Positions 38,076-63,824 of a stretch of DNA of 64,000 nt are shown here, in pieces. A program made the translations under genes and the position numbers. The stretch's first letter is position 1. Each line of letters begins with the position of its first letter. The notes beneath the pieces were generated by a model. That model saw only the letters and a list, made by a program, of their open reading frames with translations. It was not told where the DNA came from and searched no databases. The DNA comes from Pratylenchus scribneri (lineage: Eukaryota > Nematoda > Chromadorea > Rhabditida > Pratylenchidae), in the NCBI GenBank assembly GCA_030063045.1, contig JAQSEB010000142.1, positions 620,001 through 684,000 of the forward strand, given 5' to 3'.

Positions 38076-38107
38076 TGTGAGTAGTTATCACTAACAGTTC
38101 CTTAATC

Positions 38108-40032: not shown

Positions 40033-40140
40033 CCACCTCCCATTCCACTATCAATTGTCCATTTATTTATCATATTTATTTGTCCATCCACCACTCCCCC
40101 TACCAATTATTTGTCATCATCATTCATTATTTGTTTTAAA

Positions 40141-40833: not shown

Positions 40834-41212
40834 AGGCCTGAATGCCGGCATCCAATTTTCACCAACAATTGCTGACAATCATCAATTTCTCCGCTCATTG
40901 GCCAAAACCAAATCGACCGGAAGACGTAAACGCCTTCTAAAATCGGCAACAACCCAGCAGTTGTTGAGTCTCGTCGAAATTGCACTCAACATATTGCGAA
41001 ATCGATTCCGGCTAACACATCGCCAGAAAAACCGAATGCTCCCATTTGCGCAATTCATTCGTCGACTGGGGCGGATCCGATCGGAGCGAGGTGCCCGAAA
41101 GCTGGTGGTACAAAAAGGCAGCGGATTGCCCATTGCCGCATTCGCATCATTCCTCACACCAGTCATTATTGAATTAGCTCGTTCCCTAACCAACACAGCA
41201 AAAAACGATTAA
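40820..41212 (+). CDS. Small basic protein of Maverick/adintovirus type, 130 aa
   Basis: A single-exon protein rich in Arg and Lys (STGRRKRLLKS, FRLTHRQKNRML, RSERGARKLVVQKGSG) followed by a hydrophobic stretch (LPIAAFASFLTPVIIELA). From memory, small basic proteins with an RKLLVQKGGxLP-like motif recur in animal Polintons and may be a DNA-condensing or capsid-interior protein akin to adenovirus core peptides; this role is inferred. It overlaps the ATPase gene by 14 bases and ends 10 bases before the next ATG. Confidence 0.75.
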   Translation: MPPHKGLNAGIQFSPTIADNHQFLRSLAKTKSTGRRKRLLKSATTQQLLSLVEIALNILRNRFRLTHRQKNRMLPFAQFIRRLGRIRSERGARKLVVQKGSGLPIAAFASFLTPVIIELARSLTNTAKND

Positions 41213-41222
41213 TTAAAAATAA

Positions 41223-42128: not shown

Positions 42129-42139
42129 AAATAGCTTTG

Positions 42140-43264: not shown

Positions 43265-43316
43265 TCACCCACACCCCCCATAATTCATTCATTTGTATCC
43301 CATTTCCACATTTTCG

Positions 43317-45195: not shown

Positions 45196-45223
45196 TTTGT
45201 TTTTTCCCCTTCCGCCGCCTCCA

Positions 45224-45251
45224 CTATATAAGCATTTCATTTGTGAATAAA
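45224..45251 (+). promoter_or_regulatory. TATA box and preceding gene's polyA signal
   Basis: TATATAAG at 45224 lies 83 bases before the next ATG. AATAAA at 45246-45251 probably serves the penton gene (stop 45195), so promoter and polyadenylation signal overlap. Confidence 0.5.
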
Positions 45252-45306
45252 TCTTTTGCACACACACAAGCTTACATTCTCATTCGAAAATAAAAAAAAT
45301 AATACT

Positions 45307-45852
45307 ATGCATATCCCTTTCGACACACGTTCCGTTGGCTACGATGACCATTTTGTTGTTACCGCTGCTCAAACTGGTGGAGGGAATGGTCCCCTGAGCG
45401 AACCCTACCACTATTTTCGCGGTTCCCCACCATGGACCCAACGTGGTTTTGGCGCAAGGCAAAGTGGTGCCGGTGTTGGCGATGTGCTCCGCCATTTATG
45501 GCGCATAATTTTACCGGTTGTGAAACGGGCGGGCGCAGCAGTCGGCAAAGAAACACTTGAAACTGGCGGCCGAGTACTCGATCGAGTGGTCAAAGGCGAT
45601 CCGGTGAAAGAAGCAGTAGTTAGCGAGGGAAAGAAGGGCATTGATACACTGCTGGAGAAGGGTGGGATGCAAAAACAGTTTGGAGGTGGCCGCCGCCGAC
45701 AGGGTATAAAAGGCAAACGACGACGCCCATCCCATCAAATTCTTATCGGCAAACGAGCTCTTAAACCCGCCACATCATCAGCATCATTTCCATCCACCGC
45801 CGTCATTAATAAAAACAAACGCAAACGATCGGACACATTTGGCCTCTATTAA
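45307..45852 (+). CDS. pVI/pX-like basic minor virion protein, 181 aa
   Basis: Start 45307 (the frame is open from 45256, upstream of the TATA-derived leader). The sequence has YFRGSPPWTQRGFGARQSG, a helical LRHLWRIILPVVKRAGAAVG segment, GKETLETGGRVLDRVVKGD and a strongly basic C-terminus ending in DTFGLY. This FRG...VGKExLxxGxxVLxD layout is the conserved Polinton virion protein between penton and major capsid genes, compared with adenovirus pVI/pX. GGGNG and GGGRR sites could be protease cleavage points. Confidence 0.85.
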   Translation: MHIPFDTRSVGYDDHFVVTAAQTGGGNGPLSEPYHYFRGSPPWTQRGFGARQSGAGVGDVLRHLWRIILPVVKRAGAAVGKETLETGGRVLDRVVKGDPVKEAVVSEGKKGIDTLLEKGGMQKQFGGGRRRQGIKGKRRRPSHQILIGKRALKPATSSASFPSTAVINKNKRKRSDTFGLY

Positions 45853-45877
45853 TTTTTGGCCAGCCTCCTAAAAAAAT

Positions 45878-47215
45878 ATGACCACCTTCCATAAAATTGA
45901 CCGTGAATCGACAAATGCCATCACAAATGCCCTATCATTTTTCGACGTGCCCAGCACAAATGTCAGTGTTAGCAGTTCGGCTGTTGTGGAGCTGTTGACA
46001 CTCAACCCGGTGAACATCCCACCCTATCACTTCAAAATACATGCCAGCCAATCCTACTTTGACCTCTCCAAGTGCTATATTCTCCTTGAGCTGCGCATCC
46101 GCAAAGAGGATGCCGCCGGTAATTTGGTCAATTTGGACCCTGCACTCGACCATGTGGCTCCATGTCAAATGATCGGTCATACGATTTGGAAGAATTGCCG
46201 AATGAGCATCAATGGCTCACAAGTCTTCGAAGGCAATTCACTTATGGCCTACAAATCGTGGTTCGACTATATGCTCACTTATCCACTGCACGTCAAGAAT
46301 GCCTATTTGAATGCCGCCGGTTATTATGACGATGAAGAGCTCTCACAAACTACAGGACGTGGTCTCAACGCAAGGTACCAGCTCTTTGCGGGAAGCCGGA
46401 CCGCACAATTCATGGCCAAACTCGACCTGGACCTTTGCAATCAGCCCCGCTATATTGTCAATCAATGCGAGATTGACGTTGAGCTCGAGTTAAATAACTC
46501 AAACTTTTTGCTGATTGCTGAGCAAGTGGCCGGTGCTCCACCCCTTCCCCATTATCATCTCGAAGTGCTCGCATGTAAAATGTACGTAAAGAAGGTGGAG
46601 CTGATGGATTCGTTGGCCTATGACATCAACAAAAAGTTGGAGGTTAGCCCTGCCAAATACCCGATGCGAAAATCATCTTTGCGTGCCATCTTCATCAGCG
46701 AGAATCGCACTGAATTCAATGGGAGCCTATGGGCCGATCAAGTCCCAAAGCGAATTGTTCTGGGCATGGTGGCTAATTCTCACTATGTTGGCACCCAGAC
46801 CAGTAGCCCCTTCGATTTCCGGCATTTCAATGTACGTGACATAACCATCAGTGCTTCCGGAATGCTCACCCCAGCTGCCCCCTACAATTTCGATTTTCCA
46901 AATTGGAAATTTGCTCGCGCCTATCATGATATGCAAGACGCTTGCGGCTTTGCCGGCACACTCGAAAGCAACGGGATCAGCATGAATCGATATGCGAATG
47001 GCGGATGCTGCGTATTCGTGTTCAATCTGACCAACAGTGGCGAGGACAATGGCTCCGAAACATTCGATCTGATCCGAAATGGTGCCACAACGATCAAGAT
47101 CACATTCAATCAGCCCGTGCCAGCTGGAGGGATTGTCCTCATTGCAATGGGCGAGCACGAATCACTTCTCTACCTCGACCGTAACCGAACAGTGGCAACT
47201 GATATTCAAGTCTGA
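45878..47215 (+). CDS. MCP: Major capsid protein, double jelly-roll, 445 aa
   Basis: Single exon, ATG preceded by AAAAAAT. FFDVPSTNVSVSSSAVVEL at the N-terminus, GHTIWKNCRMSINGSQVFEG, YKSWFDYMLTYP and the C-terminal HESLLYLDRNR match the order and length (about 440-500 aa) of Polinton/adintovirus major capsid proteins. It forms the pseudo-hexameric trimers of the icosahedral shell. No stop or frameshift, so still under coding constraint or young. Confidence 0.93.
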   Translation: MTTFHKIDRESTNAITNALSFFDVPSTNVSVSSSAVVELLTLNPVNIPPYHFKIHASQSYFDLSKCYILLELRIRKEDAAGNLVNLDPALDHVAPCQMIGHTIWKNCRMSINGSQVFEGNSLMAYKSWFDYMLTYPLHVKNAYLNAAGYYDDEELSQTTGRGLNARYQLFAGSRTAQFMAKLDLDLCNQPRYIVNQCEIDVELELNNSNFLLIAEQVAGAPPLPHYHLEVLACKMYVKKVELMDSLAYDINKKLEVSPAKYPMRKSSLRAIFISENRTEFNGSLWADQVPKRIVLGMVANSHYVGTQTSSPFDFRHFNVRDITISASGMLTPAAPYNFDFPNWKFARAYHDMQDACGFAGTLESNGISMNRYANGGCCVFVFNLTNSGEDNGSETFDLIRNGATTIKITFNQPVPAGGIVLIAMGEHESLLYLDRNRTVATDIQV

Positions 47216-47408
47216 TGATCACAATTCTATCGATATCATATCCATTTGTCATTTATGTATATTTGTTCACCAATTTATGCATTACGATAAAATTTATTTT
47301 GAAAAACAAATGCAATTCACATGAACACATTTGACGGTAAAACAACCGATCGAATTATTTATTCTTTTGATCTATCTATTAATTAATTAAATAATTTCCC
47401 CACCAAAT

Positions 47409-47744
47409 ATGGACAACTTAAATCCAGCACTTAGTGCAGAGAAGCTGCCTTCTCCCTGCAAAGACTCGCCTAAATCCGACACCGATTTCTACACCAAACT
47501 TTATTGCTATGGTATACTATCACTTTGGCTGATGCTAATGCTGAGTGCATTGATCTACCAAATTCGTGCACTTCTTCCGCTTATTGAGCGAATCCCGAAT
47601 ATTAGTGCACTTGTTCGGAATATATTCCAATCATTTGGCGGCTCGAATTTTGGTTGGCTATCTTATTTATTTGGGGGCAGCAGCAACAGCAGTAGCAACA
47701 ATAGACGTAGACGAGAACAAGAGGCCCCCAGCAGTCAAGTATGA
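47409..47744 (+). CDS. Small one-pass membrane protein, 111 aa
   Basis: A hydrophilic N-terminus is followed by one membrane helix (YGILSLWLMLMLSALIY), an amphipathic segment (LLPLIERIPNISALVRNIF) and a Ser/Asn/Arg tail. Its stop codon overlaps the ATG of the protease gene (ATGA at 47741-47744). Position between capsid and protease genes suggests a virion or assembly membrane protein; not recognised. Confidence 0.65.
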   Translation: MDNLNPALSAEKLPSPCKDSPKSDTDFYTKLYCYGILSLWLMLMLSALIYQIRALLPLIERIPNISALVRNIFQSFGGSNFGWLSYLFGGSSNSSSNNRRRREQEAPSSQV

Positions 47745-48232
47745 ATGCCGCCCAAATTGAAGCAATTCTATGGCGATGTCATCCGAAAATGCAAAAACAC
47801 TTTCTTGGCTGTTTTCCAGCCGATCAATTGCCACACAAGTCCGAATTAAACAACTTTCCCAGCTGCATGGTAATCAATTTGGACCCAGCGAGGAAGGAAG
47901 GCTCACACTGGGTGGCCGCAATTGTCACAAATCCCAATACCGTACTCTACTGGGACAGTTTGGCAATGCCGCCAAAGGGAAAAATTGCCGATTTTCTGGA
48001 TGAGTTTGGCCGGAAGGAATGGAACAAACATCCTTATCAGAACCCTTTGACCAACACATGCGGACACTTTTGCATTGCATTTTTGTACTATATTTCCATT
48101 CTCAATTGTACCTATAAAAATTTTTTGTCCATTTTGAATGCAAATTCCAATCCCTTTGCTGATGCTTTTGTCCAAAAATTTTTGAATAAATTATTAATTC
48201 ATTATTCGTTGCTGGCTTCTATTTTTTTTTGA
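47741..48232 (+). CDS. PRO: Adenain-like maturation cysteine protease, 163 aa
   Basis: Catalytic set in the adenovirus-protease order: H56 (EGSHWVAAI), D72 (LYWDSLA), Q100 (HPYQNP) and C107 (NTCGHFCIAF); the Q-to-C spacing of seven equals that of the family. It cleaves virion precursors such as the pVI-like protein. Starts in an ATGA overlap with the upstream membrane-protein gene, so translation may depend on a separate transcript or on reinitiation. The C-terminal tail after residue 125 is hydrophobic. Confidence 0.93.
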   Translation: MNAAQIEAILWRCHPKMQKHFLGCFPADQLPHKSELNNFPSCMVINLDPARKEGSHWVAAIVTNPNTVLYWDSLAMPPKGKIADFLDEFGRKEWNKHPYQNPLTNTCGHFCIAFLYYISILNCTYKNFLSILNANSNPFADAFVQKFLNKLLIHYSLLASIFF

Positions 48233-48969
48233 AAATGGGGATAAGAATAAGTGGAACGAAAAGGGAAGAATGCCTCCCTCAATTTTAATCTCGAATTGGG
48301 TGTACCAAAGAAAATGTGCCGATTACAAGAGGATTTTTAGGATTGCCGACCAAACGATAAATGCCAGCACTTGTCCAATATGTGCCATTTACATAAGCTC
48401 CTTATTTTTTGAATGCTGCTAGCAAGTCTGACCGGCCATGGCTTCCACTTGGACTCTCGGCGCACTTGACCCGTTCTCCTTTTGTCATTTAAAATGCATG
48501 CCGCCGCCCCATTCATCTTGGCACCATCTGCGAGTGCCCATTGGCTCTCTGTCTCACCCTTTGTGCTCTCCATTGGAATGGGGGATTGGACCGCCCAGTC
48601 TTCACCGTATATAAAGCCTCTTCCCACTGCTTGGCCATTCGTTCATTCAACCCTCCGACCGACCGACCGTCCGTCCTACGGATCGTACCCATCTCGACGG
48701 CATCGACGATTATGGGGCAACGGCTAGGGGCTAGGGCTATGGCTTAGGGCAAGGATGGGACCCCCTTTTCTTAAATTTTTTGAAAACTAATTTCATAATT
48801 TCCCTTTTATTTTGAATGTTTAAATTTGCATAATTTCATAATTATTTGAATAAAATCCCACCCCTTTTCCTGCCTATATAAATCGTTACAAATCATCATT
48901 TTCCCATAAATAAAATCATTGAATAAATTTATCAGCACTAAAAGCAATAAATCGCAAGCAAAAACAAAA
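48233..48969 (+). promoter_or_regulatory. Long leader region before polymerase gene with two TATA boxes
   Basis: TATATAAA at 48608-48615 is followed 21 bases later by CATTCGTTCATTC but by no long ORF. A second TATATAAA at 48875-48882 precedes the polymerase ATG (48970) by 88 bases. TTTATCAG|CACTAAAAG near 48950 could be a 5'-UTR splice acceptor that links the first promoter to the polymerase. CCGACCGACCGACCGTCCGT is a short repeat at 48654. No convincing gene otherwise. Confidence 0.5.
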
Positions 48970-51900
48970 ATGCCTTCCAAAAATTCCGCCGCTTCCTCTT
49001 CCTCCTCATCCTCCTCTTCCGCTTCCACAATCCGCCCACCATCGCCAAAACGTTCAAAACGTGCTCATTCCCGCCATATGGTGGAAGACCTGCTCAAACC
49101 CGACAACTTTGGTCCCCGCCATCAAAAATATGTCCGCAAATTAGGCAGCGACATCGATTTCAATGACTCCTTCAAAAATGGCAAATTTTATGCCAAATAT
49201 ATAATTGAAAACCTTCCCGACGACCCGGAACATCTGCTCCGCATTTTGATCAAGCGAAGCATTGATGAGGCCATGGAACTGGCTGAACAACGCACCGGCT
49301 TTGTGCCAGACCGCATTGGCACGGCTATCACGTCACCGCACCTCGACAAACCCGTCTACACGCCAATGCGGGCACCCAACGAGGACACTGCCGAGAATTT
49401 GCTCAACCGGTTCATGTGTGTCGTCCAATCGCGCACATCAAAGGGCAAAGGCAACATTTTGGGTGCTCCCTTCCAAATTCAAGTGGACACTTGCGCTGTG
49501 AAGGCCCTTCCACGTCATCAACAAATTCAAGGCAGCGGTAGTAGCGGAAGTGGCCAATACCGCCGAAAGCGTTGCAATCCAGTGCATCATCGAGTATGTG
49601 TTTAATTCATTTTGGATGGGGGAAAGAGGGGATGAATGGATGGCTAGATGGGATGGAAGGATGGAATTTATTTTACATTCTATTATTGCAGTTTCGTCCA
49701 CAAGGCCTCATTTTCGTCAACAACTCCCCATGGCGGCCCTATTGCCTCTTCTACGCAATGGAACTAACGCGGCTCCATTCAACACTTGACTCCTACAATT
49801 TTGGCCGCATCTATCACAGTGCTCCCGATAGCCTGTATAGGCGCATTCACCAGCTGATGAAAGATGCTGGCATTCCATTGAATCAGCCCACCTACGATGC
49901 GTGCATTCACGGAAAGCTCATAATCGACCATTGGAATGAAAAATATGGCCCCGCCGGACAACAATTCAAAATGTTCGTCTTTGAGGAAATGGGCGACTTT
50001 TCGCCAGCCTTCAAATATGGCTCCACTCAATGGAATGTGCCCATTCCAATTGTTCACATGGGCACACATTTCAACGGTGTTCGCCGTGCAGGGGCAATTT
50101 TTGAGGCCAACCACAAATACTGCTATGAATGCCTGACGCTGTTCCGCGCCGATTCCGATCATCGAAAAGATTGCAAAGCTCGGTAAGTTTTGGGCACTCA
50201 ACAAAGAAGGGGAATATGGGGAATAAAAATGAAATTGATCAATCAATCAATCAATCAATCATTAAACTAAACATTTTCTTTTAGATGCATCAATTGTGGA
50301 CGGGTCGGAGTGGGAAGGCCTTGCCCTCCGGAAGCTGGCTTTGCCCCTGTAACGTGCCTCCAATGCAACCGGACATTTGTGGCTGCAGATTGCTATCAGC
50401 ATCATTTGAGCCATGAATGTGCACGAAATAAACGCTGCACCGACTGTGGTGTCGTCTGGTCCATCAAAGACAACACACGTGATGGGCGACAGGGGCATGT
50501 ATGCGGCGAGACCCGCTGCATCAACTGTAATGGCTGGCACAAAGCCGAGGCTGGATGCTTCATGCAACCGCTGGTCATCAAAAAGCGGGATCCATATCGG
50601 CTGGTCAGTTTTGACGTCGAATGCACACAACACGAGCAGCTCCTCGACGAAAAGGCGTCCCCTACCAAGAAGCTGCTCCACAATGTCAACCAAATTGTGG
50701 CCCACGTCAATTGTAGCCGATGCATGGAGAATGGGATGTGCCGAAAACCACTCCGTGCCCACAAGCGCACATGTGAAATTTGTGGGACGGACAGGGCGGT
50801 CAGCTTCTCCGTGCGCCACCACAAACAGGCCGACATGGACAAGCACATCCAATCCAATGAGCCAATGGCCGATTTCCTCCGCTGGCTTCTCTACCAAATG
50901 CCAGTCAAATACACAACAATGGTTTACAGCCACTATGGAGGAAAATATGGTTGGTTTTAATAATTGCTTACTTATTGTTCATCTATGTACATCCTTCCAC
51001 CCCCACCCCTTCAGATATGATCATGGCTTTTCGGGAAATTTTCATGGAAGGTATGGTGCCTTCCATGATCAATCGGGGCAACAAAATGCTGCAGCTGAGA
51101 GTGCCAGCCATATCAATGCCAGCCGCCGATGTCAACAACGCACATCAAAGAGGACAACGTCGACCTCTTGTGAGCGGTGAGCTGATCTTCCAAGACAGCT
51201 ACAACTTGATGTGTGCCGCTCTCGGTAAATTGCCAGGCGCATATGGTTTGGACTGTCAGGATAAGCCGCCTTTCCCGATGTTGGCCAATCATCCGAAGAA
51301 CTATGGCCGGACAATCCCTTTTCCACCACTCGAAGATTTCCTCTTTGATGGGATGTCGCCGGAAAGGCAGGCCATTGTCAAGCCTTGGCATGACGAGCAA
51401 GTGGCCAAAGGCGCGACCTTCAATTTGGATGAGCAGTTGGCAGATTACTGCTGGAATGACGGTAATGAAAGGGGGGGGGGAATGCATGGATGTAAATGAT
51501 TGAATGGAAAACATTTTAGTCATAATCCTGGCCGAAGCATTGATGGCTTTCCGCAAGGAATTCATGGAGCTGACCAAGCCCAAAAATGGCCAATCCTTGC
51601 CAATCGATATTTTGCGGGATAATATGACGGTAAGAGATGGGATCAGAACAAATTGACTTAAACAATTCGAATGTATTTAGATCTCGTCCGCATGCTTTGG
51701 CCACTTCCGCGTTAACCACCTGAAGGAGAAGCGGCTTGCAATCATTCCCCATCAAGGGTATGATCCGTGCGACACCCAAAGTCGATTGGCCTTGAAATTC
51801 TTGTCCTTCAAATCATGGTTTCATCGCTGCCATATCCAAACAGCAATGAGCAGAGGCGGCGAGAAGAAGGTTGGCAAATACAAGTTGGATGGCTACATTC

Positions 51901-53883
51901 CCCAATGGGACATGGGCATCGAGGTGCATGGCTGTCTTTATCATGGATGCCCGTGCCGCTTCCCTGATCCGAACATGATCATCCACCATAAAAACAGGCG
52001 GATGACTGTGGCCAAAGTGCGAGAGGAGGACGAGGCCAGGCTCAGCTTCCTTCGTTCCAAGCTGAGGGGTGGTGTGCAAGTCTTTTGGGAATGCGAGATC
52101 TACGCGATGGAACGAGAATGCCCAATGCTCCGTCGCTTCATGAAACGATGCCAAGTGCCTCGGCCCCTTCGCCTACGGGACTGCTTCTTTGGTGGCCGCA
52201 CCGGCCCAATGCGCATGCACTACAAGTGCCCGCCTGGCTACAAAATGGCCTATTATGACTTTTGCAGGTACAAGTGAAGGGAGGGAACAAAATTGTTTGA
52301 TCAGGGTTGTAATGATGTTCTCTTTTTAGCCTGTACCCTTCGGTAATGGCCACAACAGCATATCCCATTGGCCACCCAAAGCTGCACATAATGGAGGGCC
52401 CCGATCGAAAGGTCAATTGGACCCGTCCGGAGGATGTGCCAGTCAACGGGATTTTGAACGTCCATGTTGTCCCACCTGAACATTGTGACGTGCCGGTTCT
52501 GCCAGCCAAATTCAATGACGGCCGTCTTCTCTTCCCGCTATGCCGCACTTGCGCAACGGACTACCCCCAGGGTGCGGTCATGCCTCGATATTCCTGTCCC
52601 CATTACGATCCGGTGAAACGTGGCTGGGAAGGTCTGGTCACATCAATCGAATTGCGGGAGGCATTGGCCGTCGGCTACCGGGTGGATGAATACTTCCGTT
52701 CCTACGAATGGGAGGAATGGGACGACACCGTGTTTCGAGGGTACATCGCCGAAATGATGGAAATGAAGATTCATGCATCAGGCTTCCCCATTGCCGTGGC
52801 TGGCAAGCGGGAGAAGGAGGATCAATTCATCCGTGAGTGCGACGAAAAATTCGGCATCAAGATCGAGCGGGAAAAGATGAGGCCGAACAAGGCGCGGCGA
52901 GCCATTGCCAAGCTAATGGCCAACAACCTTTGGTGAGTTCATGGGTTGGATGAATGTGATTTATCTTCTTCACCCATAATTAAGGGGTCGGTTTGCGCTG
53001 CGCTGCAACCTCACCAAATGCCACATCACGAATAGCCCCGCCGAATACCGTCGCTTCCACGAGAACCCGACTTTGCAAATCAATCGGGCGGACGAATTGA
53101 CTCCGGACATCATCATGATGAGCTATGAAGTGTTGGACGAGTTCGTCGAGGAGAATGCCTCCAGCAATGTGATGATTTCGGCCTGGACCACTGCCGCAGC
53201 CCGCATCAAGCTGCTGCATGAAATGCAAAAAGTGGTCGCCGCCGGTGGAATCCTGCTCTATACCGACACAGGTGAATTCACCCACCTCCTTGATTAGGAA
53301 ATCTCATACGCATCATCTTCATTTCGCAGATTCCATCATCTTTGCATACAAAGAGTCGGAAGGATGCCCACTGGAAACCGGCGATCACATTGGCGAACTC
53401 ACTGACGAATATCCAGGTGAATTGGCTGGGATTTGAATGTGTTGTTGAATGAATGAATCATTTGTAGATTACGACCTTGTGGAGTTTGTCAGCAGCGGAT
53501 GCAAGGCTTACGGTATCCAAATGCGGCACAAAGTGACCGGCGAGATAAAAATCGTCATGCGCCTCCGTGGGATAACACTCACAGGCAGTACATCACGGCT
53601 GCTCCATTTCGACACCTTCAAGCGTTGCGTCTTCGAATTTGGCAAAGCGGCTGAGCTAATGGAGGCAGACGGCAATGGGGAGGCTGAAATCGAGCTGTTG
53701 GAGGATTTGAGCCAGCGGGATGAGCGGGACTGGACCATCCAGCTGGAGTACTCCAACTTCATCCAGGCCAACATTGCAAAAGGGCATGTCACATCTCGGC
53801 CAATGACGAAACGCTATCGTCCCATCGTGTCCAAGGGGATTGTCACCAAGGGGCTGATCATCAAAGACTTTGGCGCCAGATGA
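48970..53883 (+). CDS. pPolB: Protein-primed-type family B DNA polymerase, 1438 aa, 10 exons
   Basis: Exons 48970-49593, 49692-50182, 50285-50949, 51015-51461, 51520-51629, 51681-52267, 52330-52932, 52985-53271, 53330-53416 and 53468-53883 join in frame. All exonuclease and polymerase motifs are present: Exo I FDVE, Exo II HYGGKYD, Exo III YCWND, Pol A DFCSLYPSV, Pol B KLMANNLWGRF, Pol C YTDTDS and a KAY motif near the end. A GYIPQWDMGIEVHGCLYHGC stretch before Pol A is the typical Polinton signature. The N-terminal third contains a Ser-rich leader and Cys/His clusters (CINCGRVG, CTDCGVVW, CINCNGWH) that may bind zinc. It replicates the element, presumably priming from a terminal protein. Five of the nine introns fall within or next to catalytic motifs (see findings). 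Confidence 0.95.
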
Positions 53884-53967
53884 TCGATCGATCAATTGTG
53901 ATATTTTTGTTCATATTGTACATTTCAATTGCACATTCCAATTTCATTTCACACAATTCATTTATTA

Positions 53968-53973
53968 AATAAA
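53968..53973 (+). terminator. PolyA signal of the polymerase gene
   Basis: AATAAA 85 bases after the polymerase stop codon. Confidence 0.5.
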
Positions 53974-54140
53974 GTTTGAATGTAAATATTTTTTGTCCAT
54001 TCATCAATTTTATTTTGTAATGGGTTCATAAGCCCTGAAATATCTATTGTCCTTTCCCCCGCCACCCTTGATAATACCTCCCATTTTAGTCGTCAGCCAA
54101 TCAGCCACCTTCCCACTTCATCAACAACAACAACATCAAA

Positions 54141-54826
54141 ATGGTCGTGGGCTTAGAATTTGACCTCAGCACGTTCATCATCTTCTACATGTGCCGGCGA
54201 ATCACCAATGACCAGCCTTACAGCAATTGGTCATTGCAATGGCAAGAGGCCCCCTATTGCCTTGAGGACAATCCGCCCACCCGTTGGGTCACCATTGAGA
54301 AGGCACTTCGAATTGTGGAGGACGAGAATCGGCAACTTTTCGATGAGCTTCTGCTCAGGGCCAACAACACCCCAATCGGCTACAAATTGTTCCTTGCCGA
54401 ACTCGACAAACATTTCGACGAGGTAACAAACAGATGGGGTAAACAACACTAAAACATTTCGATTAGGTAACACAAGATTGGGGCAAAAATCTGTCGACAA
54501 TGTTGGCCATTTCTATGATTGGACGATATGGGCGAATGTTGGCCGAGGCCGATGCAACTCTTGATGATGGCCGACGATATCGACAGGAGATGCACCAAGT
54601 TAGCCTCTTCGGCTATCTCACCGTCAATCGCAAATGGGCAGGACAGACAATGGGCAATTGGCTGAGCATTGAGAACGAATGCCTTCGACTGGTGAATCAT
54701 TGGGATCAGAAGAAGATGAAGAAGGGCATCCTCGGTCATTGGGCTTTGACCGAAACTTTGAAGATTGCCGCATTGACTGGCGGGATATTTTCCATTGCCT
54801 ATTTCATATACCGTCGATTTGTTTAA
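54141..54826 (+). CDS. Bcl-2-like protein with C-terminal membrane anchor, 213 aa
   Basis: Exons 54141-54422 and 54467-54826 join at phase 0. In order: a BH4-like start (LSTFIIFYMCRR...YSNW), a BH3-like LRIVEDE (residues 56-62, against LxxxGDE), a BH1-like stretch with DWGK at 98-101 followed by LSTMLAISMIGRYGRML, a BH2-like GNWLSIENECLRLVNHW (157-173) and a C-terminal membrane helix at 193-209 with basic end. Length and layout match multi-domain Bcl-2 proteins and viral homologues, so it probably sits on mitochondrial or ER membranes and blocks cell death. The call rests on motif order, not on a search. The single intron is a recent tandem duplication (see findings). AATAAA at 54885. Confidence 0.65.
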
Positions 54827-55064
54827 CGCATCTCCCACTCTCATTTACTTATACACATTTTTCTCATTATTTATTTTTCTTTGGAATAAACAATTCATCA
54901 ATCAGATTGTATCTTGGAAGGGGGGAGGGAGGGATTAAGAAATGGGTGAGAATGGGTGGGGTGAATTTGGATGGGTTGGCTTGGGTTATTGAATGGCTGA
55001 ATGGCCGACGTAGTCTTCATCCATTTGCCTTGTCCCCCATTTTGTCTAAACACATTGAGCCCCA

Positions 55065-55584
55065 ATGGCCTATAACAACTCTTCCTTCCCAACAATCCCC
55101 CAAATTATTCCCACTAAAATTCCATGGGTACCGGTTGGCAATTGCACCTGCCCATTGGAATTAAACAAATGCTTCCGACCATCCATCTACTCGAAGCCGA
55201 TATTGTGCGTTCATCAGCACATATCCGATTTGGACGCCTTCCTTTCCACGGAGCCATGCCCATCAAACAACAACAAAATTGAAGCTGAGTGCATCTCTGA
55301 GAAGTGGTTTTTGATTGGAATAGGAATGGTGAGCTTCCTCCAGGCAAGTTTTGAATTCAAAGTCGATTCGATCCAATCTACACATCTTTCAGCTTCTGAT
55401 GCTGATTGGGATGGGATTGATCTGCTGCTTCCGGGGACGTCAACCATCCAATCGACCAAAGGCGAAGGAACGTCCGACGAAAAAGGATGCCATCAAGCGG
55501 GAGGAGCAGCTGGTGGTTGTCACTCGTCCGCAACCATTGGTGATTGATTTTGGGTTCATACTCATCAGGGGATATGCCATTTAG
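55065..55584 (+). CDS. One-pass membrane protein with Cys-rich ectodomain, 151 aa
   Basis: Exons 55065-55328 and 55393-55584 join at phase 0. There is no signal peptide; the first 80 residues carry eight Cys or so (NCTCPLELNKCF, ILCVHQH, EPCPS, AECIS). One membrane helix spans the exon junction (FLIGIGMLLMLIGMGLI-like), followed by CCFRGR and a basic tail. This Cys-rich head plus single helix recalls virion surface or entry-type membrane proteins, but I recognise no family. It lies between the Bcl-2-like and PAZ genes. Confidence 0.55.
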
Positions 55585-56077
55585 GGGATAGGGGTTAGGT
55601 TATAGGGGCCGCATGTATATTAGGGGCTAGGGTTAGGGAATAGGGGGATCACCTATTGCTTATACCCCTAAGCCCCTAAATCACATGCTGGCCCCTAATA
55701 CCTAACCAAAATACCTAGCCCTAATACCGACCCCCCTCTCGATTCAACAATTAATTCCCCTTTCCCTCCTCCTTAGGCCGAAATCGAAATGCCGCTGATC
55801 CAGCCAGCTCATCCACAGTCCCAGAGTGAATATTGCCACCCGGCTGAAGAAGGAAGGAAATCGAGAATGGATGAACAACCGACTTTCGATTCTTTTTTAT
55901 CATGAATTTATTCATCATCAAAAATAATTATTATTGATAATCATGACAAATAAATAATTGTGTGTTTGATAATTAGTGGGAAGAAGATGAAATTGGGGAA
56001 AAATTAAGGATTAGGAGTTATCGATTTAAGGGGAAAATTGACATAATTAGTGGGAAGAAGATGAAATTTGGGAAAAA
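55585..56077. other. Intergenic, convergent 3' ends, TAGGGG/CCCCTAA-rich
   Basis: 55570-55740 is dense in TAGGGG and CCCTAA-like strings (GGGGATAGGGGTTAGG, TACCCCTAAGCCCCTAAAT) in both orientations. TTTATT at 55907 (AATAAA on the minus strand) likely ends the PAZ transcript. A 30-base segment GTGGGAAGAAGATGAAATT is repeated at 55976 and 56050. Confidence 0.55.
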
Positions 56078-56965
56078 TTAGTGGTCTAAAGTGAGTGGAT
56101 TGGCATATTCTCGGATGCACACTCGCTTTGCCTTCCAAGTCCCATCATCCAGTCGGGCCCAACGCACAAAGTAACGTGCACATGGAGGTGGCACACTCGG
56201 TGGTGGTGGTTGACGGGCGAAACATGTATTCACTTCGTCCGCATCTTCCCCATCTGCCACAACCGCACTGATCAGAGGGATTTCACGTCTGGCCCTCTCC
56301 ATCTTGGCAAATTCTGCACACCTGGCCATTGACTCCTCTCGTTCGGCACGGGCAATACTTCGGGCCAATGATTCGGCATATGATGAGGAGGAGGAAGTGG
56401 ACAGGGAGGATGCAGGACGAGCATAGTTGTCCCCATCTCCCTGTTGTCGTTGTCGATTGGCATCCTCTTCAAAAGGGGTGGCATAGACATGTTCATCATC
56501 CGGCTTTTGATGTTGCCGATGCTGATCATCCACCACTTGTGGAGGCGGAATCGGTGGCAATTGTGGTGGAATTGGCGGCAAATTAGGGATCAGACGAACC
56601 AGCTCGAGTGGATAAAATTCTTGTTGTCGGCCATAATTGGTGTAAACGACAGCCGGATGGAATGGATATTTGAGACGGATGTTGTGCCGATTAAAATAGT
56701 ATTGAGGTAGTTTGGAATTGAAGGGGTAGCGTAGTTTGCCAAGAGCAGGCAACCTGTCCGCCCCACGCCAAGTCAAGCCTTCAAAAATCAGTGAACGGTA
56801 GGAACCATTGCGATCACGGAAGTTGGTTAGGAGAAGGCGTGGTAGGAAATGAGCAGCCACATGTTCATGTGTCTGAAGGTCTAGTAGGCGATGGCGTACT
56901 TGCTCATTTGTGCAATCGAGAAAATTGGCAATTTCATCCAACAGAGTTATGGAATTGTTTGCCAT
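56078..56965 (-). CDS. Stand-alone PAZ-domain protein (Argonaute-like small-RNA 3'-end pocket), 295 aa
   Basis: Single exon; start 56965 (AAAAATGGC), since an upstream in-frame ATG at 57046 lies before the TATA box. Residues about 5-127 follow the PAZ pattern: ITLLDEIANFL, LPRLLLTNF, SYRSLIFEGLT, then the signature SKLPQYYFNRHNIRLKYP and, after a short gap, EFYPLELVRLI. There is no N, MID or PIWI domain, so it cannot slice. A polyproline linker (PPIPPQLPPIPPPQ), a Ser/Glu/Arg-rich region and a short C-terminal domain (ARYFVRWARLDDGTWKAKR) follow. PAZ domains in Argonaute and Dicer hold the 3' end of small RNAs; alone it could sequester siRNAs. It is the only minus-strand gene in the element. 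Confidence 0.8.
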   Translation of the reverse strand: MANNSITLLDEIANFLDCTNEQVRHRLLDLQTHEHVAAHFLPRLLLTNFRDRNGSYRSLIFEGLTWRGADRLPALGKLRYPFNSKLPQYYFNRHNIRLKYPFHPAVVYTNYGRQQEFYPLELVRLIPNLPPIPPQLPPIPPPQVVDDQHRQHQKPDDEHVYATPFEEDANRQRQQGDGDNYARPASSLSTSSSSSYAESLARSIARAEREESMARCAEFAKMERARREIPLISAVVADGEDADEVNTCFARQPPPPSVPPPCARYFVRWARLDDGTWKAKRVCIREYANPLTLDH

Positions 56966-56989
56966 TTTTTGCTTGGCTGATTTAGTCGA

Positions 56990-57040
56990 ATGAATGAATG
57001 AATGAAAAATGTGAAAGCTGGGTAAATTCCATGCCTTATA
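56990..57040 (-). promoter_or_regulatory. Core promoter of the PAZ gene
   Basis: TTTATAAGG (minus strand, plus 57034-57041) is followed about 30 bases on by TTCATTCATTCATTCG (plus 56988-57003), the same arrangement as at the genes starting 57229 and 58237. Confidence 0.6.
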
Positions 57041-57122
57041 AAGCATAGAAATTGGATCAGAGCCAACAAATCACAACTCCTCCCACCAAATTCTGGTGCC
57101 AAATCACGCCCATTTAGAACGG

Positions 57123-57170
57123 TATAAATACCCGAAAAATCAGGTTATTCCTCATTTCATTCATCATCAG
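57123..57170 (+). promoter_or_regulatory. Core promoter of the GW-motif gene
   Basis: GGTATAAATA at 57121 is followed 29 bases later by TCATTTCATTCATCATCAG. About 80 bases separate this TATA box from the divergent PAZ-gene TATA box. Confidence 0.6.
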
Positions 57171-57228
57171 TTCGCCATTGAATTCTTCTCCATCATCATC
57201 TTCCTGAGCTTTATTCCACCAAAAAAAA

Positions 57229-57759
57229 ATGTCCAGCGAACAAGCCAGTGAAGAAATTGTACGAGAAGAAAAGCCTAACAAAAACAACGACAATAAAAAA
57301 CATAGCTCTTGGGCTGCTGAAAGCGATGATCAGGAGGAAGATCAATCGGGCAGCGATGATGAATCCGACAATGGTGGCTGGGCAGCAAAGTCCAGCAGCA
57401 ACAACAACAACAAAAAGCGCAAATCATCATCGTCGTCGGGATGGGGCAAGAAAAAGCCGAAAAACCGTGAGCTGTGGAAGCTGGTGATGATGCGAAAAGT
57501 TACGGCCATCACATTTCGTTTCGGGTAAAATCCCACCAGTCGATTGATTCAATCAAATTCCTACAATTATAGTGATCGCTGTTCATGTGCTCAACTGCTT
57601 TTCGATGACAAGGAGAAGCAGAAGGAGCATCGGGACGGCTCTGTTTCGACCCGAATTCGTTTGTGTGAAGAATGCGTGCAGCTGAACATCGAAGCGAACG
57701 AGGCAGTCGGAAAATTCTACGAGCCGAAGAAGGGCAACGGGAGTTGGAAGAAGAAGTAG
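57229..57759 (+). CDS. GW/WG-motif protein, candidate Argonaute-hook, 160 aa
   Basis: Exons 57229-57524 and 57573-57759 join in frame (GG|T). The first 80 residues are disordered, acidic and Ser/Asn-rich, with evenly spaced tryptophans in small-residue contexts: SSWAAESDD (W28), GGWAAKSSS (W51) and SGWGKKK (W72). A basic patch (NKKRKSS) could be a nuclear signal. The C-terminal part is folded-looking with CSC and CEEC pairs that may bind zinc. GW/WG repeats with spacings above about ten residues bind tryptophan pockets of Argonaute PIWI domains in GW182-type proteins and some viral suppressors. Divergently transcribed from the PAZ gene. AATAAA at 57860. Confidence 0.7.
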
Positions 57760-58134
57760 CAGCAGCCGGACAGCCGATGAAGATGATGCCAATCCAAACG
57801 ATTTATTCAAATCATTTCATTCATTTATCCATTCAATTTATTCAAATTTTTCCAAGCCGAATAAATAAATTTCAACATAAAGCAAAGGGATTTGTATATT
57901 TCATTCATTCAAACTCTGGGTCAATCCCATCGTCGAGAGGCGGCAAAATGCCTTTGTTGCCTTTGTCCCCGACATTTGTCCTCCTCATACCACTTAACCT
58001 GCCATTCCCTTCCTCTTTTCAACTGCTCCTCCTCCCCTAACCCTATTCGCATATTTAATTCGAGAGGCGGGATTGGGGTCGGTGAACATGCTTGTGGTGA
58101 AGAAATTCATTTCATCATCCTCCATCCGGCACAA
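57760..58134 (+). other. 3' end of the GW gene and promoter region of the next gene
   Basis: No gene seen; rich in ATTCATTCATT and CCTCCT strings. Confidence 0.5.
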
Positions 58135-58178
58135 TATAAAAGTCCCTCCTTCCAACCAGCATCCATTCATTCATCCTT
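58135..58178 (+). promoter_or_regulatory. Core promoter of the RING-like gene
   Basis: TATAAAAG at 58135, then CCATTCATTCATCC 28 bases downstream, 60 bases before the ATG at 58237. Confidence 0.6.
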
Positions 58179-58236
58179 ACATTTAAACCTTCATTTGAAC
58201 TCCGCTACTATTTTTGCCAGCAAAAAATCAAGCGAA

Positions 58237-59279
58237 ATGGCTCAGCAACAACAAACCACCATTCCATCCACACCAGTAATCACCAATGCATCGCGAATTC
58301 TGCTGATCAATGGTGATGGTGGACAATCACCCGTGCGGCGTTGCATGTTTCCAGGTTGCACACGTCCATGTTTGTTTTTAGACTTAACTGCTGTAAACAA
58401 ACACCCGTCATTATAGATTCGGAACATTTGTGGCATGTTCGAATTCAAAGTGATTCGCCAGCTCATCGAAATTTTGATACGCCACGTTCCACAGGACGAA
58501 CCTATCGCCAATTGTCCCCAGGGCAGCAGGAGCGGATAATTTATGATGGGCCAATAGTTCTTCCAGCTAATGGTATGTGTGTTGTTAAATCCTCCTATCC
58601 ATTCATTCAACTCTAATTTGAATAGATGGTATTGGTCAACAACCGCAAGAACAGCCGCCGCAATATCCGCTGAATGAGCAAGATGTTCCCGAAGAGTATG
58701 CTGATGCGGCTGCCAATATGGATCCCGGTAACGATGATGATGATCCGAATTACAATATATTAATCCATCCGCCATGTTTTAGGCAGCGATCAGCTCCTTC
58801 CGCTCTGGGACGAAGTGGAGAGCGAACTCAACGCTAAAAAATGGCGGCCCAATGATGGTGAGTCATCAGGGCATTTAATTTCCACAAAAAAGCTCATTCA
58901 TCTCACAGGCTTAAATGTGCAGGACCGCTGCTTTCTTTGTTTGGGTGAGCGGGAAGTGCATTGGCGCTTTAATCAGTGCGGCTGTACATGCATTTGCACC
59001 GAGTGTGCCGGCGATTGGGAGAATATGGAGGCATTGCGGGAGCTGGCAGAAGAACGCTCAGCCGAACGTTTGAAGCAGTGGAAGCGCAAGTGGGACTGGC
59101 ACAGCCCGTGCTGGTGGACAGAGTGCAACTGCCAGAAAGAACTCGATTCAGTGCTCGATGTGCGCCCGTTATGCTTGAACTGCAACACTGCTAAGGCTGA
59201 CAAGTTTGTCCGGGCACTGCGCAGCCGATCCCCTCGTCAACGAAAACAGCCTCTACGCTATTCACCCATGATGAAATGA
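58237..59279 (+). CDS. Cys-rich RING-like protein, 272 aa, five exons
   Basis: Exons 58237-58354, 58417-58572, 58626-58727, 58786-58857 and 58909-59279 join in frame, all at phase 1. The N-terminal two thirds are Gln/Pro-rich with no known domain. The last exon has a zinc-binding pattern: DRCFLCLGEREVHW, then NQCGCTCICTECAGDW, a charged helix (ALRELAEERSAERLKQWKRK), then SPCWWTECNCQ and LCLNC. The CxxC...CGC-CxxC order resembles a RING finger of the IAP/MULAN type with the usual His replaced by Cys, so it may be a ubiquitin ligase. The acceptor at 58785 (TTTTAGGCAG) rather than 58781 is needed to keep frame. Confidence 0.6.
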
Positions 59280-59682
59280 TATGATTAATTATTCTCCCCC
59301 TTCCCCTCATTCACAATTATATTCAATTATAATTTATTCAAACCCTTTTCAATACCATTATTTTTCACATTTCCATTTAAAATAAAAAAGAAGCCTCTTA
59401 TTCTATTGTACACTCGATTTGAATGGGACGGGATTTGAAGAATGGGGGATGGGCTAAAATGGGAGGAACGGGAAGGGATGGGATGGCAGGGGAGTGCCGA
59501 GAGTGGAATTGCGCAACATTTTTGAATCTGCAGTGGCTTGTTTTTCTCATTTTCCATTCTGTTCCTATGCCAAGAATGGATTTTGGCACATTTATTTCCC
59601 CCAATCATCCCCTTACCTCCTTTTTTCCCCGTTTTCCTAATTTTTAATAATTTTCCAAGATATAAAAAAGTTGATTATTAAA
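59280..59682. other. Possible right edge of the element; no gene seen
   Basis: Sequence becomes AT-rich again. A G/A-rich stretch (GGGACGGGATTTGAAGAATG) lies at 59427. TATAAAA at 59661 precedes the F-box/SPRY ATG by 22 bases. Confidence 0.4.
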
Positions 59683-60756
59683 ATGCCATTCGCAGCCGAA
59701 ACTATTGTGGAAATTTTTGGTTTCCTCTCTGTCTTGGACCTATTTCAATTCTTAACCCGTCATCGCCTATTCTTCTTGCGCCCCTTTGCGCAAATGGTAA
59801 TTTTGTTTTGTAAATTGGGTGAAAACTTTAAAAATCATCTATTAAGCAAATCAAAAATCGTGGAGAAATGATTGCGGAGGGAAAGAAATTGCTCGTGGAA
59901 GGCCATATATTGACACACACCGGAACCCAATATGGTAAATCTATTTTGTTTATTTCTTCTTCTTTTAAATTATAAAATATATTTAGACGAGAATGAATAT
60001 ATGTGGGCACGGAACGTTCTATGTGTGCCAGGAATATTGGAGTGCCGAGGCAAAGCAATTGCCTTCTATTTTGAAATAGAAATTTTAAAAATGGAGGGGT
60101 GAGTTTTCACTTTATTGCTCAAAATTATCTTTAAATTTATTAATCCTTAATCCAGATTGAATGGCATAGTCGTCGGCTACGGTAGAGATCGCGAGGGGCG
60201 TGCATTGCGTGAAAAGCAGTCACAAATGGACGGACTTTTCCAAAGATATATGGGCACCCAAAACAAATTGGGCGATCGAGATCATACGGTTGGCATGGAT
60301 ACACTCTACTGTCTACGCGATGAACGCGTGGAAACCGACCTCACTGCGCCACATCAACTTTTCCAAGAGGGAATGGTTATCGGAATGGGCATTGCGCACT
60401 ACCCCTTTTCAATCGTGGATGAAATAGGATTGGATTGTTTCGCTACATGCAATGGCAAATTAATAGGTTGGCAAGAAATACTTTTCTTATTTAAATATAA
60501 TTACGATTAATATGAATAAACTATAGTTAAATGAAATATTATTCAATTTTTAAGCCATTTAAATTCAGGATCGACTATGCTGTTTTCCCATTTTGCCGAC
60601 ATCAAACTCTTTCCCACGATCAATCTGGCTGTTGGTGGGGATTCAATTCGAGCAAACTTTGGGGAGAAGGATTTTGTCTTTGAAGATTTTGATGCAGTTA
60701 TCCATCCACCACCGATAACAACTTTCCCCACATTCCCCACTAAAAGTTTCCTCTAA
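59683..60756 (+). CDS. F-box/SPRY (RanBPM-like) protein, 270 aa
   Basis: Exons 59683-59796, 59847-59934, 59987-60098, 60156-60466 and 60569-60756 join in frame. The first exon is a short F-box-like helix set (ETIVEIFGFLSVLDLFQF). The rest is a SPRY/B30.2 domain: KAIAFYFEIEILKMEG, IVVGYGRDREG, DEIGLDCFATCNGKLIG, FPTINLAVGGDSIRANFG. SPRY proteins of this RanBPM-like type are greatly expanded in some plant-parasitic nematodes, where secreted forms are effectors; this one lacks a signal peptide and may instead be a ubiquitin-ligase adaptor. Introns and base use look like host genes, but it directly follows the element and could be cargo. Confidence 0.8.
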
Positions 60757-61271
60757 TTCCTTCTATTTTGTCTTTTCATTTTGATTCTTAATGTTCAGGA
60801 ATTTCCCTTCCCATCCATCCATCCATTCATCCAGCTTTATTAATCATTGATTGAACAATACAGCATTGCCCCCCCCCCCTTCCTTATCCAACCCATTTCT
60901 AATAAAATACAACAAAATATTTGGCTTCTCTAACCCCTCACTCTTAATTATATAAAAATTCTCATTTAATTAATTAATTATTCAATTTTCAAATAAAAAG
61001 AAAAATGATTGAGATGGAAAGAGTCCGCCGTGAGGGTAACAAACGCTCCCTCCCCCTTTGGTAAATAATTTGAAAGAAACCTCCAGGGGGAACCAAACAA
61101 AAAAAAACTGAATAAATTTTACTTGGTTAAAATTAATTTCTCTTAATTATTTTCCCTAAACTTATTTGAAAAATTAAAATTTTAAAAACAAATATTTTAA
61201 CAACACATTTATTTTATCATCATCATAATCAAAGAAAAATTCAAATTCAAAAAAATCAAATTATTCATCTT
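60757..61271. other. Intergenic, no gene seen
   Basis: Contains CATCCATCCATCCATTCATCC and a run of C (60871). An ATG at 61005 opens only 19 codons before a possible donor. Confidence 0.45.
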
Positions 61272-63824
61272 TTAATTTCCTCCCATTGCTGCGGCCTCAA
61301 TCGCTCCACCATTTGCCAATTCCGTTCCTGCCGCTGCTGCTGGCTGCTGTGCAATTCCTCCGCCAATGTGCTGCTGTTGGCCCAATTGTGCCCTGAGTCG
61401 GGCCATTTTCTTGCGGCGTTTTCCAGCACCACTGTAAAGGGGGAATAGGGGTATTAGAATAAGTTTAGAAATAAAAAATTTTTTTAATTCCCGTTTGTCT
61501 CTGTTAACCATTATCCCAATCTATGACACTGGCTAAACAGTCCCAGGCCAAAACAGTCCCAGGGTAAGCAGTCCCGGGGCCGGTCCCGGACAGTCCCAAA
61601 CACCAACAAGACAGTCCCAGGGCCGGTCCGGGACAGTCCTAAGCACCGACAAAGCAGTCCCAAGCCGGTCCGGGACAGTCCCAAGCACCGACAAAGCAGT
61701 CCCAAAGGCGGTCCGGAACAGTCCTAAGCAATGTTTTTGATTGGATAGGCAGTCCCAAAGCCGGTCCGGAACGGTCCCAAACCGTAGTTTGGGCCCATTC
61801 CGGCCCAACCGTGGGCCCACCTTTCCACATTGCTTAGGCCCATCCCAGCCCAACCTTGGGCCCACCCTATCAACACTTGGGCCCATCCCGGCCCAACCTT
61901 GGGCCCACCCTATCAACACGTGGGCCCATCCCGGCCCAACCCTGGGCCCACCCTATCAACACGTGGGCCCATCCCGGCCCAACCCTGGGCCCACCCTATC
62001 AACACGTGGGCCCATCCCGCCCCAACCCTGGGCCCATCTAACCAACTATTCCCCCTTTACTCCTAGCTTCCACCCCCTCTAAACTTATCTTATTATTAAT
62101 TTTTGGTCCCGATGTTGATGCCATTTGCTGCTGTTGCTGTTGTTGTTGTAGCGCAGCCAAGCCTCCTAATGCTGCCATTTGCATTTGTTGCTGTTGTTGT
62201 TGTAGTGGTGGTGCCAATCCGCCCAATGCTGCCATTTGCATTTGCATTTGTTGCCAGGGATTGATGAAACTAAAATAAACACAAAAGTATTTAATGATTG
62301 CAAAATAATGTGAAAAAATTACCCATTGAAGGGTGGCAGCATTGGCATTCCATTGAATGGTGGCAGCATTGGCACACCATTGAAGGCCATAGGCAGCATC
62401 GGCTGAAGGAGGGGCATGGAGGCAGCAGGCGGCTGGAATCTAATAATAATAAACAAAATTATTATTTTTAATAGAAATAAAATGAAACATTTACCCATTG
62501 ATTGGGAAATTTGCTGTTGGTTGCGGGATTGGGGCATTTTGCTGTTCCTAAAAAATAAATTATATTCATGTTTAATATTATTAATTCATTAAATTATTAA
62601 AAATTATTAATAATTATTTGATTATTAATTAATTAATTAATTAATTAATTAAAAGGCTTACCCCATTGTTTTGTTGTCCACCGTCTCCTCCGCCTAGATC
62701 CCCTCCATTTTCATGGCCATCAGTGGGAATTTCCTAAATTATTCAAATTATTATTGTTATTTTTTAATTATTCAAATATTTTTAATTCATTAAATTATTA
62801 CCAATTATTAATATTTTTTCATTATTTTTTCATTATTATTAATTCATCAAAATACTTACTATTGTATTGGCCTCAACATGATGCTCCACTGGTTGATGTT
62901 GATGGCCAACATTGCCGCCATCATTACCCTCTACGCTTCTTACTCGTGCCTAAAATAAATATTTTTAAACATATCTTTACAAAAAACAAATAAATTTAAA
63001 TTACTCTTGTGGCGGGAGGAGATGGCGGGGCAGATGGCGGGGTAGTTGGCAGCTGAAAAGAAAAAAAATTATTTAAAATTGAAATAATCAAATATACATA
63101 AAAACAAATTTACCTTGGGCCGTTTATTTCGTCGCCGTTGCAATTGTTCCAAAGGGGGAGGCGATGTCGGCCAATTCTCTCCCCATCTCGCCTTGAATTC
63201 GTCGACTTTCTCTTCACAATTCTGGTAATTAATTATTATTTATTTATTTATTTATTTTTTATAATTAATTTTTATTTATTTAATTTTAATAATTTTATTA
63301 CTATTATTAATTTATAATTTTTATTTAAACTTACCATATTCTCTTCTAATACCCATTCTCCGTGGCTTAAGGGGAATCCCCGCCAGGTTATATAATATTC
63401 AAATTGGGTGCCATTCATTCGCTTCGCCAGAATAGAATTGACCTTTAAATAATAATAATATTATCAAATAGAAATAAAAAAAATAAAATTTTGAATTATT
63501 GAAAAGTTTTTTAAAATAATTAATAAACCTACCGTATAATCTTTCCTCGGTTCCCGTTTCCTTCGACGCTCCGTAAGAAGAGCACTCTTCCGCCTTTTCT
63601 TTTTTGCCACCTGCTGTTGTTGTTGTTGCTTTTGTGCTGGCCCTTTTTGTTGGTGTTGTTCATCATTGAGTTGTGGCGGTTGTTGGGCCACAGCTTGTCC
63701 GTCGTTCAATTGTGGCGGTTGTTCGCCAGTTGCTTGTCCATCGTTGAATTGAGGCGGCTGTTGTTCTTGAATATGGCCTCCAGCAGCAATATCGGCAATT
63801 TTTGGTGATGGCTGCTCAATTAAA
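61272..63824 (-). CDS. Chromodomain protein with Gln/Pro-rich repeats (5' end outside window)
   Basis: Exons on the minus strand: 63824-63533, 63442-63335, 63221-63114, 63052-63005, 62949-62860, 62733-62662, 62547-62495, 62439-62323, one from 62272 whose 3' end is uncertain, and a last exon 61431-61272 with the stop. The first exon starts at a splice acceptor, so upstream exons exist. Residues after RKREPRKDYT form a chromodomain (EYYITWRGFPLSHGEWVLEENM, then a FKARW helix), which reads methylated histone tails. N-terminal to it is a thrice-repeated QPPQxNDGQA; C-terminal to it are MPMLPPFNG, MQMAALGGL and polyQ repeats. Probably a host chromatin factor. The junction across the GC-rich array (62.0-61.43 kb) is unresolved. 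Confidence 0.72.
61545..62037. repeat. Two adjoining GC-rich tandem arrays (42 and 43 bp units)
   Basis: 61545-61760: unit CAGTCCCAAGCCGGTCCGGG plus ACAGTCCCAAGCACCGACAAAG. 61790-62037: unit CCCATCCCGGCCCAACCCTG plus GGCCCACCCTATCAACACGTGGG. Both lie in an intron of the chromodomain gene; open frames across them are artefacts. Confidence 0.85.

Follow-up and report, generated by a model that had tools for sequence, protein, structure and literature searches.

What does a PAZ domain do in a transposon when it stands there without the rest of an Argonaute? This question is raised by a gene in a 64,000-nucleotide (nt) stretch of the genome of the nematode Pratylenchus scribneri (assembly GCA_030063045.1, contig JAQSEB010000142.1, positions 620,001 to 684,000 of the forward strand), which we call the window and to whose first letter all coordinates refer. 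The gene lies in a Maverick, a large virus-like transposon. Based on sequence comparison, we propose that the stand-alone Maverick PAZ protein likely suppresses host RNA silencing and is predicted to act together with a protein carrying Gly-Trp (GW) motifs that is encoded back to back with it; we give this reading a probability of roughly 0.5. The gene and its immediate surroundings comprise the following features:

56078..56965, minus strand: stand-alone PAZ gene, one open frame of 295 amino acids (aa) plus stop, supported by genome matches
56588..56947, minus strand: PAZ domain, about residues 7-126, placed by the family alignment and profile
56081..56587, minus strand: tail of the PAZ protein, proline-rich and then rich in Ser, Gln, Asp and Glu
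56966..57228, between the two genes: divergent intergenic region of 263 base pairs (bp) with TATA-like boxes on both strands
57033..57044, minus strand: TATA-like box CTTTATAAGG, 73 nt before the ATG of the PAZ gene
57123..57128, plus strand: TATA-like box 106 nt before the ATG of the GW-motif gene
57229..57528, plus strand: first open frame of the divergent partner gene, a low-complexity region with Trp motifs followed by the conserved core RELWKLVMMRKVTAITFRF

The PAZ frame, which had been described as intact in the initial annotation, is indeed a single open frame of 295 aa on the minus strand, and the short conserved segment VRWARLDDGTWKAKRVCIREYANPL, common to relatives, closes its tail. 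The TATA-like box that had been taken for the gene's own promoter is present as well, but the gene does not have a promoter region to itself, being one half of a divergent pair with the plus-strand gene at 57229, which probably continues after an intron in a further exon. The suggestion that the lone reversal of strand reflects separate timing found no support, because the gene belongs to this pair and because its strand varies across copies: in 91 pairs of a PAZ match and its nearest packaging ATPase match, the two were on opposite strands in 51 and on the same strand in 40.

Confirmation that the gene product is a PAZ-domain protein came from its family, the window sequence being weak by itself. 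Against the Pfam PAZ family (PF02170), the window protein scored 21.2 bits (E 3e-4) with only residues 87-128 aligned, and the domain alone scored 22.8 bits, both under the cut-off of 28.8. A metagenome homologue that is 76% identical to the window protein (P0003) scored 32.1 bits, above the cut-off, over profile positions 16-105. All 36 members of the family alignment matched PAZ in a Pfam scan, and no other Pfam family was matched by any of them at E 0.01. When the family profile was compared with PDB, all 27 matches at E 0.01 were Argonautes, the best being the PAZ domain of human AGO1 (E 1.9e-8), and hhalign aligned the family with the human AGO1 PAZ segment over 70 columns with 95% probability. 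The PAZ pattern first noted at residues 5-127 was thus borne out, at about residues 7-126. A chance Pfam match was considered and rejected on the strength of the 36 PAZ members and the Argonaute-only PDB matches, and the 134 matches in the same genome also place the observation beyond chance. The RNase III and helicase domains of Dicer were both absent from a Pfam scan of the whole 295-aa protein.

A search of the 227-Mb genome with the window protein gave at least 134 matches of 25-100% identity, 119 of them without an internal stop as counted by eye. In this search 133 of 217 candidates were scored, while the corresponding figures were 150 of 333 for the packaging ATPase and 130 of 162 for PIWI. 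A search of other nematode Mavericks for the gene had been proposed, and within this genome it does recur: 89 of the 99 ATPase matches of at least 53% identity had a PAZ match within 30 kilobases (kb), as did 16 of 51 more distant ones. Conversely, an ATPase match lay within 30 kb of 91 of the 132 PAZ matches, and for PAZ frames of at least 150 aa this was the case for 89 of 111, compared with 3.9% of the genome being that close to an ATPase match.

Most related Mavericks here keep the gene together with their core genes, which would also be expected of a replication helper. PAZ folds bind single-strand 3′ ends, and the protein might therefore serve the DNA cycle of the element, binding 3′ ends of the element's DNA, single-stranded or recessed, while it is being replicated by protein priming, integrated or packaged. 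The rough co-variation of PAZ and ATPase (Spearman 0.51, 91 pairs) points in the same direction. We nevertheless consider a role in the DNA cycle unlikely: related ATPase matches without PAZ nearby exist, the strand of PAZ relative to the ATPase changes among Mavericks, and PAZ has diverged further than the core ATPase (40% versus 58% identity to one subfamily). Furthermore, the solved relatives that were found are Argonautes only and not replication factors, and the GW partner and Trp-bearing tails described below would be left unexplained.

Some PAZ-bearing Mavericks stand in regular arrays, with a spacing of about 20.1 kb on contig C63 (PAZ at 11712, 31857 and 52001) and of about 38.4 kb on contig C138 (42327, 80736 and 119145), as in tandem duplication, end-to-end insertion or an assembly effect. 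Two weak PAZ matches, C46:518671 (33.8 bits) and C234:111122 (28.1 bits), lie in open frames of 3606 and 2338 aa, respectively.

The PAZ domain had been described as lacking an Argonaute, and this holds for the family as a whole, since no PIWI match was found within 20 kb of 131 of the 132 PAZ matches. The possibility that a nearby PIWI domain is joined to the PAZ exon by splicing was rejected on the same count. Among the first 22 PAZ rows found by Pfam search alone, 18 had PIWI within 20 kb. The sole PIWI-adjacent match of the 132 is on contig C139 (561641-584779), where PAZ (572322) and ATPase (582231) have PIWI exons on either side, as if the Maverick had inserted into a host Argonaute gene. 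In a tree of 93 columns, 24 Maverick PAZ domains, out of 39 distinct ones, formed one group with support of 84/96, and 14 host-type exons together with human AGO1 and AGO2 formed a separate group (86/86); a second Maverick PAZ group of 7 domains was weakly united (35/80), with long branches meeting there. The tree thus gives moderate support to the view that the Maverick PAZ domains are a lineage apart from host Argonautes.

The PAZ domain is under purifying selection, with dN/dS of 0.07-0.24 in 14 of 16 pairs, the other two being saturated; some of the dS values exceeded 1.4 and are accordingly rough. This bears on the concern, already voiced in the initial annotation, that the frame is a fragment of a host Argonaute pseudogene caught up in the element. 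The domain is homologous to Argonaute PAZ, as such a fragment would be, but the separate lineage, the 119 of 134 matches without a stop, the purifying selection, the relatives in several genera and the Met directly upstream of the domain in many copies largely refute this origin, and we regard it as highly improbable. As a candidate explanation it was rejected on the first three of these grounds.

The AGO1 residues H269, Y277, F292, Y309, K313, Y314 and L337, which we take to form the PAZ pocket, align with F49, L59, L75 (or A74), Y89, R93, H94 and Y118 of the window protein. Among 70 rows including the window, the usual residues at these seven columns are Y (67), F (53), Y (65), H (62) or Y (8), R (68), H (68) and Y (67), and we conclude from these residues that the PAZ family probably keeps a polar-aromatic pocket. 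A check of the aromatic pocket residues had been proposed; the pocket is better kept across the family than in the window copy, which retains it only in part, if for the most part, position 75 being L. In group 2, His is invariant at the counterparts of H269 and Y314 in all six members.

The substitutions at the F292 position (L, S or H in the window copy and its closest relatives) would suit a PAZ-like fold that is kept as a protein scaffold without RNA binding, for example as part of the particle or to bind some other protein of the element, and so would the great variation of the PAZ tails in length and sequence. On the other hand, the columns presumed to form the pocket belong to the almost invariant part of the family alignment, including the R-H pair at the fifth and sixth columns, which human AGO2 also has. 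For this reason, we think that a pure scaffold is a rather unlikely role for the protein.

The GW partner adjoins PAZ at all 13 loci of 51-100% identity, with a broken frame in the case of L013. The genome contains 14 matches to the partner, of which 13 are at these PAZ loci. The intergenic gaps differ: TATA-like boxes are found on both strands in L001 (the window locus), L002 and L004 and on the plus strand in L006, a TATATAA is common to L007 and L008, and L009 and L010 have no TATA-like box in the gap. Pfam and PDB searches with the partner gave nothing significant. Its low-complexity stretch contains three Trp (SSWAAES, NGGWAAK and SSGWGKK) and neither Phe nor Tyr. A comparison of the L001 and L008 types shows the Trp-Gly sites retained, although the linkers barely align. 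In the L008 and L012 partners all four Trp are beside Gly, which was reached by 24 and 17 of 5000 shuffles, respectively, and in the L006 partner two of three are (225 of 5000). This pattern, Trp beside Gly in a low-complexity region and kept while the linkers diverge, is that of an Argonaute hook, and the partner is a predicted hook protein.

Trp residues also occur in the PAZ proteins themselves, many of which have an acidic tail. The analysis covered tails of at least 25 aa; 6 of the 119 proteins had no anchor motif. Among 40 representatives of less than 60% identity, 20 end exactly in W, and the tails contain 18 GW/WG motifs against 6.1 in shuffled sequences, a threefold excess that none of 2000 shuffles reached. 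PAZ and GW motif are likewise the parts that a recruiter would need, and the two proteins could load host small RNAs or Argonaute in order to steer the element to chromatin, time its expression or silence rival elements; with many Maverick subfamilies in one genome, competition between them is plausible. However, Pfam scans of the PAZ proteins revealed no catalytic or targeting domain, and no feature that we found points to guided cleavage or targeting. We therefore consider recruitment improbable.

The pair is read as an anti-silencing system because the GW/WG motifs of some plant viral suppressors act through Argonaute, as stated in passages of a paper on such proteins (PMC11345138). According to the suppression reading, the PAZ pocket would still bind the 3′ ends of small RNAs and so keep Argonaute and Dicer from reaching them. 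Host Argonaute would be bound by the GW protein or by the Trp-bearing tails, and the net effect would be less silencing of the element. Likely targets would be the host's unmethylated small interfering RNAs (siRNAs) and the 22G-type RNAs made by RNA-dependent RNA polymerase. In the passages concerned of one paper, 22G-RNAs are used against transposons in the clade IV nematode Globodera pallida, and nematodes outside clade V for the most part lack HENN-1 (PMC6468775). More tentatively, and with clearly less than even odds, the Mavericks of plant-parasitic nematodes may be equipped against silencing with a dismantled mimic of Argonaute, in which the free PAZ would take the 3′ ends of small RNAs and a Trp hook would occupy Argonaute. 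As part of this tentative picture, the hook would be a separate GW protein in one subfamily and an acidic tail ending in Trp in others.

Several observations speak against suppression as the function, and some of them concern the window copy itself. It has L75 at the presumed stacking position (AGO1 F292), where 65 of the 70 rows have Y, and F instead of Y at position 49; at position 75, the 36 rows of the alignment from its own genome show Y or F 28 times and H, L or S 8 times. Its PAZ tail has neither GW/WG nor a terminal Trp, and in its partner two of three Trp are beside Gly, a proportion reached by 180 of 5000 shuffles. Clustering of the tails at 45% left a weaker excess (7 GW/WG versus 2.5, reached by 24 of 2000 shuffles), with 6 of 17 ending in W. 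Some of the dS values are rough, as noted above. Ten of the 99 related ATPase matches have no PAZ within 30 kb, and 41 of the 132 PAZ matches have no scored ATPase within that distance; the one of the latter that was examined, on contig C86, is surrounded by ATPase, integrase, protease and DNA polymerase B (PolB) matches and is thus in a Maverick. Finally, some GW-bearing viral proteins do not suppress silencing, according to the passages cited above (PMC11345138).

The neighbourhood of the gene in the window is a Maverick, as judged from the sequence matches of its rve integrase, packaging ATPase, C48-type protease and viral-type PolB:

38080..63372, no strand: block common to the copy on contig C1 at 99.9% identity, giving the approximate extent of the element
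40141..40833, plus strand: packaging ATPase, Adeno_IVa2 with 25.2 bits (cut-off 21), Pox_A32-like just below its cut-off
42077..43264, plus strand: integrase, rve core with 39.5 bits in a stop-to-stop frame
45878..47215, plus strand: capsid-type frame by position and size, with no Pfam match, its capsid role being putative
47711..48232, plus strand: Ulp1/C48-type protease, 22.1 bits (cut-off 20.7) in a stop-to-stop frame
52316..52936, plus strand: viral-type PolB, exon-like frame, DNA_pol_B_2 with 52.2 bits

A relative of the capsid-type frame with 34% identity sits in the C86 Maverick. The 99.9% identity with the C1 copy, determined from two outer pieces (38080-43496 and 54500-63372), suggests recent movement or duplication; neither terminal inverted repeats nor a target-site duplication were found at the edges of the common block. 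In this C1 copy (L005) a frame break in the tail of the PAZ gene leaves the PAZ part intact. Downstream of the GW-motif gene is a frame of the RING zinc-finger type (58764-59279; zf-C3HC4_3, 19.3 bits, cut-off 27), and near the right end of the block self-matches in 43-bp steps at 61566-62036 point to a tandem repeat. An Rfam scan of the window gave no matches at gathering scores.

The family extends to other nematodes. A first search with the single window protein found only 2 relatives, whereas the family profile, applied to the 7995 candidates sharing most words, matched at least 69 proteins of 113-300 aa from Meloidogyne hapla, M. enterolobii, M. incognita, Heterodera trifolii, H. schachtii, Globodera rostochiensis and metagenomes. 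These relatives by themselves suggest a tylenchid nematode as the host of the window gene. The second group's own profile matched 64 proteins, again including ones of M. enterolobii; P0015 overlaps the first set of 69, and P0133, with an extra domain beside PAZ, resembles part of an ordinary Argonaute. Scans of IMG/VR with the window protein and with the alignment found no relative. The M. enterolobii gene model P0116 encodes PAZ and then a TATA-binding protein (TBP) domain. This order recurs in the C86 Maverick, where the PAZ gene is followed by a TBP-like gene (L088:165-1016, C86:1637064-1637915; TBP 55.7 bits), which suggests that such Meloidogyne genes are Maverick genes. A Maverick-borne TBP would also fit the TATA boxes of Maverick genes.

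The direct family members in Meloidogyne and Heterodera are entered in UniProt and NCBI as 'PAZ domain-containing protein' or 'hypothetical', names that go by the domain and say nothing of Mavericks, and one from H. trifolii (P0067) is named 'Effector protein' in UniProt and may be a Maverick gene. In the literature, a Heterorhabditis expressed sequence tag named 'PAZ domain containing protein' is a lead only (PMC2686736). Argonaute counts relied on the joint presence of Piwi, PAZ and AGO1 domains in a Meloidogyne survey (PMC5934874) and on similarity to WAGO1 in the G. rostochiensis genome paper (PMC4901422); the passages concerned do not mention PAZ-only genes.

How does the Maverick protein compare with known systems? 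It is homologous to the PAZ domain of Argonautes (human AGO1 and AGO2, worm-specific Argonautes of nematodes) over about 105 residues and has the signatures VAQYF..R-H/Y..LKYP..PC and PLE in common with them. Unlike these, it has no PIWI nearby and forms free proteins or frames of 113-395 aa, and its main group has Y or F and not H at the position of AGO1 H269. Like siRNA sequesterers such as P19, it would hold small RNA; P19 grips a duplex by its length with a fold that differs from PAZ, whereas PAZ would grip the 3′ end. GW/WG motifs link the Maverick partner and many PAZ tails to the WG/GW suppressors of viruses, namely 1A/1B of grapevine fanleaf virus, P1 of sweet potato mild mottle virus (SPMMV) and p38 of turnip crinkle virus (TCV). 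Those are proteins of plant RNA viruses, for which the passages concerned mention no PAZ (PMC11345138), while suppression by the Maverick pair is predicted from sequence. Nematode Mavericks carry accessory genes of other kinds, too, such as wosp proteases, krma kinases and a fusogen, and the passage of the meeting report that names them does not include PAZ or the GW partner (PMC10680173). No Maverick or viral PAZ-only gene in print was among the matches listed in our searches of open-licence PubMed Central papers. Silencing suppressors as such are known; a transposon-borne one consisting of a free PAZ with a GW partner would be new if the function holds.

If the tentative picture of a dismantled Argonaute mimic is true, this would be the first transposon-borne suppressor to be assembled from components of the silencing machinery itself, one that most related Mavericks of the genome keep and that has relatives across Meloidogyne, Heterodera and Globodera. 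The PAZ-only family bears on the question of how virus-like transposons of large size survive in animals whose siRNAs silence transposons, for which it provides a concrete counter-silencing candidate based on a domain of the defence itself. Among the 'PAZ domain-containing' or 'effector' gene models of crop-parasitic nematodes, some may thus be Maverick genes, which bears on RNA interference work in these pests.
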